In this document: positions 25,693 through 38,080 of the stretch, one piece after another
Position numbering within the stretch: position 1 is the stretch's first letter
How the letters are laid out: each line of letters opens with the position of its first letter
Assembly: GCA_902787555.1 (NCBI GenBank)
Contig: CADAGO010000010.1
Span: 22,506 to 86,505 of the forward strand
DNA: 64,000 nt
From: an uncultured Bacteroidales bacterium
GTDB taxonomy: Bacteria; Bacteroidota; Bacteroidia; Bacteroidales; Bacteroidaceae
Direction: 5' to 3'
Notes under the pieces: generated by a model
What the model saw: the letters and a program-made list of their open reading frames with translations, nothing else
The model's database searches: none
Told to the model about the DNA's origin: nothing
Made by a program: the position numbers and the translations under genes

Positions 25693-27645
25693 TTAAGAGT
25701 TTGCATCGAGTATTTTGATTTTCTCGCGAATCTCTTTCAAGTCGGCTTTCAACTTGTCAACTTTATGATGCAGTTCTTCAACTAAATTGCTACTCTTATT
25801 GGCCTTTGAGAGATTGAGGAAACCGAGATTGTTTTCGTATGTTTTAATCTCTTGTTCCAAGATTTCGGCCTGACGTACCAACTTATCTCTCATACGGTCG
25901 CCTCCACCTTCGCTTATTACATTCTTGAATCTTTCTACACGACGCTTTGATGCGGTCTCATCAAGGAAGTCGTACAGACGATCCATTTGTGCGCGGAATG
26001 CTTGGTAAACAGCATCTTTCTCTTTGAATGGAACATGTCCAATTTCGTTCCATTCAGTCTGTGCATCTTTCAACTGCTGATGGAGATCTGTTGTCTCCTC
26101 GGGAACGATGGCCTCAAGACGAGCTACAATTGCTCTCTTTTTGCTTAGGTTTTCTGCTTGTTCACCATGCTGCGAAGAAGTGTTCGCTTTCTTTGCTTCA
26201 AAGAAGGTGTCGCAAGCGGCACGGAAACGAGTCCAAAGCGCAACACTGTGTTTCCTTGAAACGGGACCCGTTGCATTCCATTCTTTCTGGAGGGCTATCA
26301 ATGCATCGGCTGTTTTCTTCCAGTCTGTGCTGTCCTTCAGTGCCTCTGCTTTCTCTACCAATTCCGTTTTTTTCTTGAGATTCTCAATTTGGCTGTCACG
26401 AGCTTCTTTAAGAGCTTCAGACCTACGGGCAAAGAATACGTCGCAAGCGGTGCGGAAACGATCATAAATCTTCTGGTTCATCTTTTGTGGAGCAAATCCA
26501 ATTGTTTTCCACTTGGCTTGGAGGCTAATTACCTTTTCGCTCATCTTATTCCAGTCGGCGTATGATTTCAGTGAATCGAGATCAAAGCCTTCAATAATTT
26601 CGCAGATAGCGGTCTTCTGATCCAAGTTCTGATTCTCTACTTCCTTACGTGATTCAAAAAACTCCTGATGGCGTTTGTTGATGATGGTTGATGCTTCTTT
26701 GAAGCGATGCCATACTTCTTCACGGAGTTCCCTGCTTACAGGACCTATTTCGCGGAATTGCTGATGTAGGTTTTGCAAAGTGCGGAATGCTCCTAACACA
26801 TCATTGCTCGCTGCCAGACGTTCTGCAGCTTCACACAATGCTGTTTTCAACTCAAGATTCTTCTTGAAGTCGTAAGCACGGAACTCGTTATTGAGTTTCA
26901 ATGTGTCATAGTATTTTTCTACGTTCACCTGATAAGTCTTCCAAAGTTCTGTGTTCTTTTCTGCTGGAACATCTTTGATGCTATTCCATTCTGTTTGGAG
27001 CGCACGGAACTCGTTGTAAGATTTGTTTACTTCATCAGGATTATCAAGAATCACTTTGATTTTCTCGATAATCTGCAGTTTCCTCAGGTAGTTTTGCTCT
27101 TTCTGTTGCTCTAAGGCTTTGTGTTGAGCAGCACGTTTCTCTCGAACGATATTCATCTCCTCCTTGAATAGTTGCTCCAAAGGGTCGATGATTGGAGTAT
27201 ATGCCTCTGGAGCGCCTCCGTCATCAACATACTGCTTATAGGCAGCTTCTCCTTCTGTCTTGAGGATACGGTAGAAATGGCTTTTCAAAGCATCCACTTC
27301 TTGACGGTTAATCTCTTCTTCGCCTTGCGCGATTTCTTTTAAACGCTCGATGATTCCTTCTTTCGTATCAGGAATCTGCAACTCTGCTACAGGTTCGGCC
27401 TCTGCCTCGGGTTCTGTTTCCACCTCAAGTTCTGCCTCTGCCTCAGGTTCTGTTTCCACCTCGAGTTCTGCCTCTGCCTTAGGTTCTGCTTTCAACTCGG
27501 GTTCAGCCTCTGCTACTTCTGTAGGTTGCTCAACCGGTTGTACTTGTTCTGTTGCTTCTGTAGCTACAACTTCAGTTGCTGTAGTTGCGTCTGTATCAAC
27601 TTCTTCAGGTTTGATTACAGGTTCATTGTTTACTAATTCTTCCAT
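25693..27645 (-). CDS. DUF349 repeat protein with acidic repetitive N-terminus
   Basis: 650-residue cytoplasmic protein, largely helical. Residues about 1-95 are acidic and repetitive, with two exact copies of EAELEVETEP followed by EAEAEP. The rest carries about five DUF349 repeats, recognisable by W-N/K-x-I/T-G-x-V/A/S segments (EWNSIKDVP, REIGPVSRELREEVWHRF, KWKTIGFAPQK, EWNATGPVSRKH, EWNEIGHVPFKEKD), and ends in a coiled coil. The molecular function of DUF349 proteins is not established. It follows cdsA by 30 bases and is probably the last gene of the rsfS-ftsH-cdsA unit. Confidence 0.88.
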   Translation of the reverse strand: MEELVNNEPVIKPEEVDTDATTATEVVATEATEQVQPVEQPTEVAEAEPELKAEPKAEAELEVETEPEAEAELEVETEPEAEAEPVAELQIPDTKEGIIERLKEIAQGEEEINRQEVDALKSHFYRILKTEGEAAYKQYVDDGGAPEAYTPIIDPLEQLFKEEMNIVREKRAAQHKALEQQKEQNYLRKLQIIEKIKVILDNPDEVNKSYNEFRALQTEWNSIKDVPAEKNTELWKTYQVNVEKYYDTLKLNNEFRAYDFKKNLELKTALCEAAERLAASNDVLGAFRTLQNLHQQFREIGPVSRELREEVWHRFKEASTIINKRHQEFFESRKEVENQNLDQKTAICEIIEGFDLDSLKSYADWNKMSEKVISLQAKWKTIGFAPQKMNQKIYDRFRTACDVFFARRSEALKEARDSQIENLKKKTELVEKAEALKDSTDWKKTADALIALQKEWNATGPVSRKHSVALWTRFRAACDTFFEAKKANTSSQHGEQAENLSKKRAIVARLEAIVPEETTDLHQQLKDAQTEWNEIGHVPFKEKDAVYQAFRAQMDRLYDFLDETASKRRVERFKNVISEGGGDRMRDKLVRQAEILEQEIKTYENNLGFLNLSKANKSSNLVEELHHKVDKLKADLKEIREKIKILDANS

Positions 27646-37253: not shown

Positions 37254-37295
37254 TGCAAATACTATGCGTTTTTCTGCAAATACTATGCGTTTTTC
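37254..37295. repeat. Exact tandem duplication of a 21-base unit
   Basis: TGCAAATACTATGCGTTTTTC occurs as two identical copies of 21 bases (37254-37274, 37275-37295). It lies between two divergent promoters (37228-37235 minus and 37316-37346 plus), so it could be a shared operator. Confidence 0.85.
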
Positions 37296-37315
37296 TCAAG
37301 AACACCAATCATTAT

Positions 37316-37346
37316 TTTGTCAGCTCATTTTTTTGTTGTATCTTTG
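37316..37346 (+). promoter_or_regulatory. Near-perfect promoter reading into the 11-base repeat tract
   Basis: TTTG (37316-37319), 19 bases, TATCTTTG (37339-37346). One of the best consensus matches in the window, yet no recognised gene follows on this strand; it points at the leader and periodic tract at 37347-37623. Confidence 0.7.
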
Positions 37347-37440
37347 CATAAGGAAAATATAAGGAGCCACAAGGCTCATAAGCCGCCTAAAACTTTTTGC
37401 TATGTGACACTCATTCCCAACTCCCAAACACAAGGAAGAA
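37347..37440 (+). other. Leader segment ahead of the periodic tract
   Basis: About 94 bases after the promoter. It contains a small hairpin (GAGCC-ACAA-GGCTC, 37364-37377) and ends in AAGGAAGAA just before an ATG at 37441. No known RNA family was recognised. Confidence 0.4.
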
Positions 37441-37557
37441 ATGTTGGAAAACACTAAGACAACTCTAAGTCAACTCTATACCAACTCTATGTCAACTCTA
37501 TGGTACCGAAGGGGTACCGAGCATGTACCGCATACTTACCTCAAGGTTACCGCATAG
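37441..37557 (+). CDS. Possible 38-residue peptide encoded in the periodic tract (doubtful)
   Basis: An ATG after the leader opens a 38-codon frame: MLENTKTTLSQLYTNSMSTL followed by WYRRGTEHVPHTYLKVTA. The stop TAG falls exactly at the end of the second block of 11-base units. Because 11 bases times three is 11 codons, the peptide carries a hidden 11-residue period. No family is recognised, and nothing but the promoter, leader and start argues for translation; it may equally be a non-coding transcript. Confidence 0.25.
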   Translation: MLENTKTTLSQLYTNSMSTLWYRRGTEHVPHTYLKVTA

Positions 37558-37623
37558 GTTTCTCTTGTCTTTCTCTTGTTCCCCTCTGGTTCCTTTCTAT
37601 GCTTTCCCTATGCTTTCTCATTA
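37448..37623 (+). repeat. Sixteen consecutive 11-base units in three classes
   Basis: The 176 bases divide without a gap into 11-base units. Units 1-5 share CAACTCTA (ACAACTCTAAG, TCAACTCTATA, CCAACTCTATG, TCAACTCTATG; the first, AAAACACTAAG, is degenerate). Units 6-10 share TACC (GTACCGAAGGG, GTACCGAGCAT, GTACCGCATAC, TTACCTCAAGG, TTACCGCATAG). Units 11-16 are pyrimidine-rich (GTTTCTCTTGT, CTTTCTCTTGT, TCCCCTCTGGT, TCCTTTCTATG, CTTTCCCTATG, CTTTCTCATTA). The register never slips. Confidence 0.9.
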
Positions 37624-37637
37624 ACGTAGGGGTTCGT

Positions 37638-38039
37638 TCAGGCTTTAATGGCTGCCGATTTCCTGTATCCGAGACCTGTGACGTGACAGATAAGTTGACC
37701 TTCTTGGTTTGTGACTCGAACTTCGACGGATGGTATCTTATGGTGGTTGGCTACGTGAACTGCTTCGGCTCGTAGGTGGTCGCCTTCGTGGGCACTCGAA
37801 ACATACATAATGCTGTTGCTGATGCCGAAGGTGAGTTGACCGTTATAGTTCATCAAGGCCGCGATCGCGAGGTCGGCAAGCGTAAACAAAGCTCCTCCTT
37901 GACATACGTTACCTCCATTGAGGTGTTCTGCTGTCACAGTCATTTCTGCTACTGCTTGATGTTCGCCCACTTCTGTAATCCTGCACCCAGCGTTGGCGGC
38001 GAAGCGGTCTGTCTGATTCAGTAATTCCTTTATGTTCAT
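37638..38039 (-). CDS. PaaI-type hotdog thioesterase
   Basis: Small acyl-CoA thioesterase of the hotdog fold, 133 residues from the ATG at 38039; the longer frame begins with TTG inside the promoter. The family pattern is visible in EHLNGGNVCQGGALFTLADL followed by AIAALMNY, with the helix and the catalytic-region glycines, then ISNSIMYVSSAHEGDHLRAEA. PaaI-like members hydrolyse phenylacetyl-CoA and other aryl or short acyl-CoAs; no phenylacetate genes are nearby, so the substrate is unknown. Single gene, convergent with the periodic repeat tract. Confidence 0.88.
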   Translation of the reverse strand: MNIKELLNQTDRFAANAGCRITEVGEHQAVAEMTVTAEHLNGGNVCQGGALFTLADLAIAALMNYNGQLTFGISNSIMYVSSAHEGDHLRAEAVHVANHHKIPSVEVRVTNQEGQLICHVTGLGYRKSAAIKA

Positions 38040-38072
38040 GTCTGTCGTGTTGGAAAATGTGAAAATCTTCGG

Positions 38073-38080
38073 CAAAGGTA
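38073..38080 (-). promoter_or_regulatory. Promoter -7 element for the thioesterase gene
   Basis: TACCTTTG on the minus strand, 33 bases before the ATG, with a TTG at 38093-38095. It supports the 38039 start, since the longer frame would begin inside this element. Confidence 0.55.

Follow-up and report, generated by a model that had tools for sequence, protein, structure and literature searches.

Dispersed arrays of 11-base units in Bacteroidota and their association with DUF6266 genes

Known repeat systems and the layout of the array

BOX elements of pneumococcus are modular dispersed repeats that consist of a start module and variable middle units, form hairpins and carry no gene; we know of no protein family linked to them. 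The arrays described here are likewise modular, dispersed and gene-less but differ from BOX in unit length and sequence. In type III toxin-antitoxin systems a tandem-repeat RNA, with known units longer than 11 bases, precedes a protein gene, and to our knowledge these systems have no dispersed gene-less copies. Tandem repeats also precede a protein gene here (DUF6266), although no toxin fold was recognized in DUF6266. A likeness to MITEs lies in internal deletion derivatives of the full leader-gene unit that retain DUF6266 remnants, found at three sites only (L137, L228 and L230).

REP sequences are described, in the sections consulted of one paper, as dispersed extragenic palindromic repeats of patchy distribution, generally with one full trans gene per repeat type, and the TnpAREP (RAYT) gene as often adjoining its repeats (PMC6006769). 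As far as this partial account goes, the present arrays are similar: they are dispersed, extragenic, partly palindromic and patchy, with several copies per genome and one trans gene in many genomes. On the other hand, the partner here is DUF6266, which has no recognized HUH/Y1 domain, the repeats are 11-base iterations, and three array genomes had 15 to 39 DUF6266 matches. For plasmid partition, the sections consulted state that the ParR protein of R1 requires two or more of the 11-bp parC direct repeats and that its pB171 counterpart binds a pair of 10-bp repeats (PMC9426499). Direct repeats at helical pitch, 11 bp in R1 and 10 bp in pB171 by this partial account, are a precedent for the present arrays. 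A parC-type layout, with repeats before the partner gene, was observed in under half of 64 DUF6266 upstream regions (24 with lag 11 and 5 with lag 22). The arrays differ from parC in being chromosomal and in having many dispersed copies, and DUF6266 was not recognized as a ribbon-helix-helix protein. Among the neighbors that were annotated, we noticed no ParM or ParR beside the arrays.

We analyzed a 64-kb window (the whole stretch of DNA under study) and found its strongest 11-base periodicity at 37448-37623, a tract made of sixteen 11-mers in gapless register. A sequence-only reading had divided the tract into five, five and six units of three classes, and both position and periodicity confirmed that division. 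The identity at lag 11 was 0.64 across the 176 bases, while 5000 first-order Markov shuffles reached at most 0.44 at any lag from 5 to 40. Seven of 63,825 window positions reached the lag-11 value of the array, and the best of them starts at 37444, which is the array itself. Block A, block B and the third block were each periodic alone (p of 0, 0 and 0.0004, respectively; 5000 shuffles), and TRF recovered the 11-base period piecewise. The features of the locus are as follows.

37316-37319, plus strand: TTTG, promoter-like -33 box, by sequence; kept in the sister-species copy
37339-37346, plus strand: TATCTTTG, promoter-like -7 box with a start expected near 37353, by sequence; kept in the sister species
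37347-37447, plus strand: leader, near-identical in the sister-species (G010) ortholog although the array turns over
37448-37502, plus strand: block A, five NCAACTCTATR units (CAACTCTA-type), by periodicity; same block in 37 scanned stretches, four units in the G010 ortholog
37503-37557, plus strand: block B, five TACC-type units, GTACCGAAGGG / TTACCGCATAG, by periodicity; the GTACCGAAGGG class also occurs in own-genome stretches L002 and L003
37558-37623, plus strand: third block, six pyrimidine-rich units, by periodicity; seven units in the G010 ortholog
37638-38075, minus strand: convergent flanking gene from the ORF list, ending beside the array; context, outside the element

The first unit of block A, AAAACACTAAG, is a weak member of the CAACTCTA type. 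The block B sequence ACC(GAA)GGGG is complementary to CCCC(TCT)GGT of the third block, and the two could pair. Bacteroidales promoters have a pair of boxes at -33 and -7. The upstream elements that had been read from the letters (a promoter-like TTTG-N19-box, a leader hairpin and an ATG) are all present in the sequence, and the TTTG-N19-TATCTTTG spacing is exact by position; promoter activity is putative. The hairpin is small (GAGCC-ACAA-GGCTC, 37364-37377), and neither the ATG at 37441 nor its frame is kept in the sister species. The flanking gene at 37638-38075 is presumably thioesterase-like, and a 125-residue part of it is present in 11 of 17 genomes of the genus. Just upstream of the promoter-like boxes, an exact 21-base tandem duplication (TGCAAATACTATGCGTTTTTC) occupies 37254-37296 and is single copy in the G010 ortholog.

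The array family across Bacteroidota and its turnover

Copies of the array were found both in the same genome and in related ones. A search of the window's own genome with the block A pattern, allowing up to 3 mismatches, identified five array sites (C1:48735, C1:82455, C9:31674, C10:59976, which is the window copy, and C26:13563); two extra lone 3-mismatch matches and three control matches were all chance-like. The leader plus array of the window also matched other places in this genome. A scan for three tandem block A units identified 37 stretches in 17 named Bacteroidota assemblies, two of which contributed nine and eight stretches, respectively. These assemblies are titled Prevotella, Prevotellaceae, Bacteroidaceae, Bacteroidales or Bacteroidetes, and several come from rumen, reticulum or colon samples. 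In one open-access library we found no description of 11-bp repeats in Prevotella or Bacteroidetes, or of dispersed Bacteroidetes repeats, and the family is apparently undescribed in the literature.

By eye, the usual anatomy is a promoter-like TATCTTTGCA (missing in some), a hairpin leader, a few CCAASTCTATA units and then drifting 11-mers; TATCTTTGCA or TAACTTTGCA precedes the leader in many of the other arrays, not in all. The block A consensus consists of CAASTCTATR units, and the CCAASTCTATA units often end in TATG. The drifting units (for example GTTCCTCTAGG) are often followed, again by eye, by a turn and then by purine-rich 11-mers. The sequence of the leader hairpin varies between genomes. 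Eight copies from one assembly could be aligned over the whole array and ~65 bases of preceding sequence, with ends judged by eye; their flanks are unrelated, and no target-site duplication was seen by eye in this alignment. Arrays lay outside ORFs of at least 110 codons at 41 of 42 sites (46 minus 4 with short flanks), and no preferred orientation relative to neighboring genes was evident. Two further repeats were noted. Within one genome, several copies (L018, L145, L146 and L149) have a different, CCTTTCTCTATGAGCRAAAC-like repeat after or in place of their late units, and a short TACCGAG-class array without block A adjoins another gene in the own genome (L006, C1:129359-129403).

In the sister species G010, the corresponding site is occupied by an ortholog of the window array. 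Compared to the window, block A of this ortholog is one unit shorter and the last block one unit longer (four and seven units, respectively), and both indels are exactly 11 bases, so that the unit number differs between species. Two other close ortholog pairs had indels of 11, 11 and 12 bases and of 11 and 1 bases. Hence, in the three close pairs, 5 of the 7 indels inside arrays are exactly 11 bases, while a fourth, more diverged pair had a 22-base gap plus several irregular gaps. Units appear mostly to be gained and lost whole. The earlier suggestion that slippage could not explain the tract was not supported, since most of these indels are of the size that gain or loss of a whole unit would give; one-unit slippage or unequal exchange would produce both the 11-base register and, by local duplication, the blocks of like units. 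In the genome G014, the 700 bases next to the flanking-gene copy contain no array; the G014 array nearest that gene is a DUF6266 leader some 4 kb away.

Association of the arrays with DUF6266 genes

Five of the 17 genomes in the window's genus have arrays, and exactly the same five encode DUF6266 (PF19781). We also scanned 399 genomes of the family. Strict arrays (at most 2 mismatches) were found in 9 of them, all among the 21 genomes with DUF6266 (19 above cut-off), while the reversed-pattern control matched 0 of 399. The hypergeometric probability of this co-occurrence was 4.6e-13, or 1.7e-8 within genera, whose sizes we counted ourselves. With 3 mismatches allowed, 11 genomes matched, 10 of which have DUF6266, and the reversed pattern hit one of the 399. 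DUF6266 was also present in all 17 scanned assemblies: 7 had it beside a scanned array, 6 were found by search, and the remaining 4 (G001, G010, G013 and G014) are also part of the genus test and overlap with that count rather than being independent of it. These scans used the block A unit pattern and cover arrays of that unit sequence. The reverse association was looser; 12 of the 21 DUF6266 genomes in the family are without a strict array, and some of these hold only partial DUF6266 matches.

The exception at 3 mismatches was G026, a genome rated 100% complete, in which no DUF6266 was found even at an E value of 10.

529-560 of contig C26 in G026 (L100:529): array-like stretch

This stretch has CCAACTCCTTG units that drift in 11-base register, with a lag-11 identity of 0.62, and it looks like a genuine array. 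The co-occurrence of arrays and DUF6266 is strong, not absolute, and because of this exception we lowered our confidence in the link to DUF6266, in binding by DUF6266 and in the overall reading, the last of which had stood at an even chance. We nevertheless consider it highly probable that the array family is linked to DUF6266.

In G580, the array is the DUF6266 leader itself and the co-occurrence there is automatic; the other eight strict-array genomes have at least one array elsewhere. G765, assembled as one contig, has a single DUF6266 gene without a strict array upstream and at least eight arrays elsewhere, indicating that the link is in trans in that genome. The co-occurrence could also reflect shared mobility. 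Of the 37 scanned stretches, 9 have a DUF6266 gene directly downstream of the array, frameshifted in one case (L042), and in one further stretch (L039) a DUF6266 start lies divergently beside the array; the Pfam match was made for two of the nine downstream genes and for the own-genome gene. In the six array genomes examined, G829, G830 and G833 (the genomes of L010, L024 and L012) had 39, 24 and 15 DUF6266 matches, respectively, some of which are pieces of one gene. G829 is the most expanded, and several of the 20 stretches taken from it share a leader with CTCTTCTTCCC and GGGAGG segments.

Many DUF6266 genes in Bacteroidales and elsewhere in the phylum are preceded by other 11-mers, such as GTATCAAGTCC in L072, CTAACTATATG in L169 and CCATATCAAGG in L190. 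We determined the top lag in up to 400 bases (6 regions were shorter) upstream of 64 DUF6266 matches, which comprised 26 of 27 places from one search and 38 of 48 from a second; a duplicate of the own-genome gene and nine fragments, pieces or pseudogenes were left out of the second set. At an identity of at least 0.55, the top lag was 11 or 22 in 29 of the 64 upstream regions and neither in 35, related genes being counted separately. Downstream (63 regions, since one gene had no downstream stretch), lag 11 and lag 22 were each the top lag once, and inside the gene neither was. At an identity of at least 0.60, the two lags were found in 17 and 4 upstream regions as compared to 0 and 1 downstream. 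A few loci had a period of 10 or 9 instead of 11. The 13-base motif TCYRTAYCAASTC, which was picked after some of these upstream regions had been viewed, was present at no more than 2 mismatches in 20 of 59 DUF6266 upstream regions outside the genus, relative to 4 on the opposite strand, 6 with the reversed motif and 1.5 in shuffles.

Remnants of DUF6266 were detected by tblastn beside some arrays. Only residues 1-33 are left at L015/L137 (one site), a locus at which the gene is intact in the own genome; beside the arrays of L228 and L230, residues 150-175 alone remain. No DUF6266 trace was found by tblastn at 53 of the 74 loci searched, the window copy included; some sites are counted twice among the 74, and five are DUF6266 loci. 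A shared operon around DUF6266 was considered and rejected, as one small gene recurred in 6 of 19 neighborhoods and four others in 2 each. The small gene, which has PHFFILNKG- and GSVIPF-like motifs, lies directly before DUF6266 (L197, L198 and L202-L205). Near another DUF6266 gene, L040:3815-3862 gave a borderline match to the Acido-Lenti-1 RNA (38.9 bits against a cut-off of 37).

An AlphaFold model of the DUF6266 protein L035 had a mean pLDDT of 78.7, the best of five models, which ranged down to 54.4. The model predicts a low-confidence N-terminal part with strands, followed by helices and a C-terminal sandwich. Among the 50 Foldseek matches listed, most were FN3-type domains that covered about half of the protein length; the best had an E value of 8.8e-4 and a TM-score of 0.36 by query length, and the viral matches were likewise FN3-type. 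The N-terminal part, which is rich in conserved basic residues, had no structural match, and neither the model nor the Foldseek search gave a recognized nucleic-acid-binding domain. No paper on DUF6266 was found in one open-access library. An origin from phage or plasmid was rejected: the DUF6266 protein L068 had no match among phage records (50,697) or plasmid records (72,556). The own-genome protein had no relative in viral contigs by a search sensitive to close relatives only, five proteins had no match in PHROGs, and the one pattern match in a viral contig was two units in a row and chance-like.

Interpretation of the arrays

The module consists of promoter-like sequence, a leader hairpin and tandem 11-mers on CAASTCYRTAY that drift into others. 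Its copies, several per genome, are dispersed and non-coding; they change mostly by whole 11-base units and are found almost only in genomes with DUF6266. The arrays probably descend from DUF6266 leaders. Our preferred reading, which we place just short of an even chance, is that the window tract would be an extragenic copy, without the gene, of the module that forms the 5-prime leader of DUF6266 units, possibly serving as a further binding site. In the simplest history, leader-plus-gene units would have been copied or moved and many copies would have lost DUF6266. The arrays may then be kept because some factor binds one 11-mer at each turn of the helix, either in DNA or in the transcribed leader. 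The likeliest factor would be DUF6266 itself, or alternatively a partner; the leader would thus serve autoregulation of DUF6266, and solo arrays would act as extra binding sites or sponges. That DUF6266 binds the arrays is a suggestion we make tentatively. A broader proposal, which we regard as rather unlikely, is a phylum-wide two-part system without a recognized transposase, in which DUF6266, with an FN3-like domain and a basic N-terminal part, would recognize the 11-base motif at each helical turn, both in the leader of its own gene and in the dispersed arrays, which it would spread or organize and which would co-evolve with it by gain and loss of whole units. Either way, DUF6266, a family without a known paper, is tied to a specific and countable DNA or RNA feature, which makes its function testable. 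Should the arrays prove to be read by DUF6266, dispersed sites at helical pitch would form a system so far unsuspected in Bacteroidota.

The main rival to leader-derived sites read by DUF6266 or a partner is that the arrays are passive relics, i.e., left-over leaders that expand, contract and mutate by slippage, with a register inherited from an ancestral 11-mer and no present function. The whole-unit indels of the close orthologs are consistent with this, as are the decayed DUF6266 genes beside some arrays, the resemblance of many DUF6266 upstream units to one consensus and a predicted fold of the window array no better than that of shuffles. However, the leader is near-identical between species although the array turns over, the arrays are nearly confined to DUF6266 genomes, and several lineages have long perfect inverted arms. 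Block A also appears to be the most conserved part, alike across genomes while later units drift, a pattern to be read with the fact that the scan itself selects for block A. We consider passive relics possible but somewhat doubtful. As relics, the arrays would give a clear natural record of how repeats turn over one unit at a time next to a gene family that is proliferating.

A further alternative is a role at the RNA level. The array would be transcribed as part of a leader or as a small RNA, its units and arms would fold into a long hairpin in which each unit spans roughly one A-form turn, and an RNA-binding protein or RNase III would read this hairpin. The promoter-like boxes and leader hairpins before many arrays argue for this alternative. 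Perfect stems of 11-mers were found in L074, L091, L094, L175, L190 and the G765 copies, among which L217 has a stem of about 43 bp; palindromic arms are clear in the G765 copies and in some DUF6266 leaders and weak elsewhere, the window copy included. In 34 arrays (38 minus 4 alike above 85% in place), complementary 9-mers numbered 27 antiparallel and 6 parallel, as compared to 3 and 4 in 31 background windows. On the other hand, mirror matches in the same arrays were no rarer than antiparallel ones among 8-mers (54 and 52, respectively) and numbered 16 among 9-mers, where 27 were antiparallel, and inverted arms are compatible with DNA too. The fold z-score averaged only -1.3 over the 34 arrays (12 below -2 and 9 above 0). 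A sign test on the longest stem gave 17 to 8 for the A arrays (p 0.054) and 29 to 12 for DUF6266 upstream regions (p 0.006). Two lines were set aside as proof, namely the whole-array RNA fold, given a z-score of -0.55 for the window array, and the tendency of complementary hexamers to fall into one phase class (155 of 435), since repeated units inflate such counts and the parallel control clumps as well (78 of 353). A known RNA family was also rejected; in 20 sources, no array gave an Rfam match at gathering score, and a search of the window region gave no near-threshold match at its array. Taken together, we find a function as RNA somewhat unlikely.

The period bears on DNA and RNA alike. The sequence-only reading had noted that 11 bases is close to one helical turn, and a period of 11 (sometimes 10) does recur before DUF6266 genes with differing unit sequences, which fits the idea without proving it. 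A period near 10-11 suits one turn of B-DNA or A-RNA, and an inherited 11-mer would account for it as well. For the RNA-guided partner that had been proposed along with it, we found no evidence.

Mobilization of REP/RAYT-type palindromes by a Y1 HUH transposase would account for the dispersed, extragenic, partly palindromic copies, the single trans gene of many genomes and the patchy distribution. However, Y1_Tnp (PF01797) did not co-occur with the arrays: within the genus, 2 of the 5 genomes with arrays and 4 of the 12 without contain it, several of these genomes being incomplete, and it was not found in the own genome (82% complete). REP/RAYT is the closest system in layout, yet the Y1 transposase does not track the arrays, and we judge this explanation very improbable. 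Setting the arrays apart as a new kind rests on this failed partner test and on the lack of fit among the systems compared, not on a proven mechanism.

A repeat peptide, which had been offered as an 11-residue periodic product, or a decayed coding sequence is scarcely credible: by eye, block A is stop-free from the ATG at 37441, but the 11-base indels shift the frame between species, that ATG is unconserved, and arrays of this type are found at sites that share no ORF. Elsewhere in the window, at 27382-27513, we noted an 18/36-base tandem repeat, possibly inside a coding sequence.
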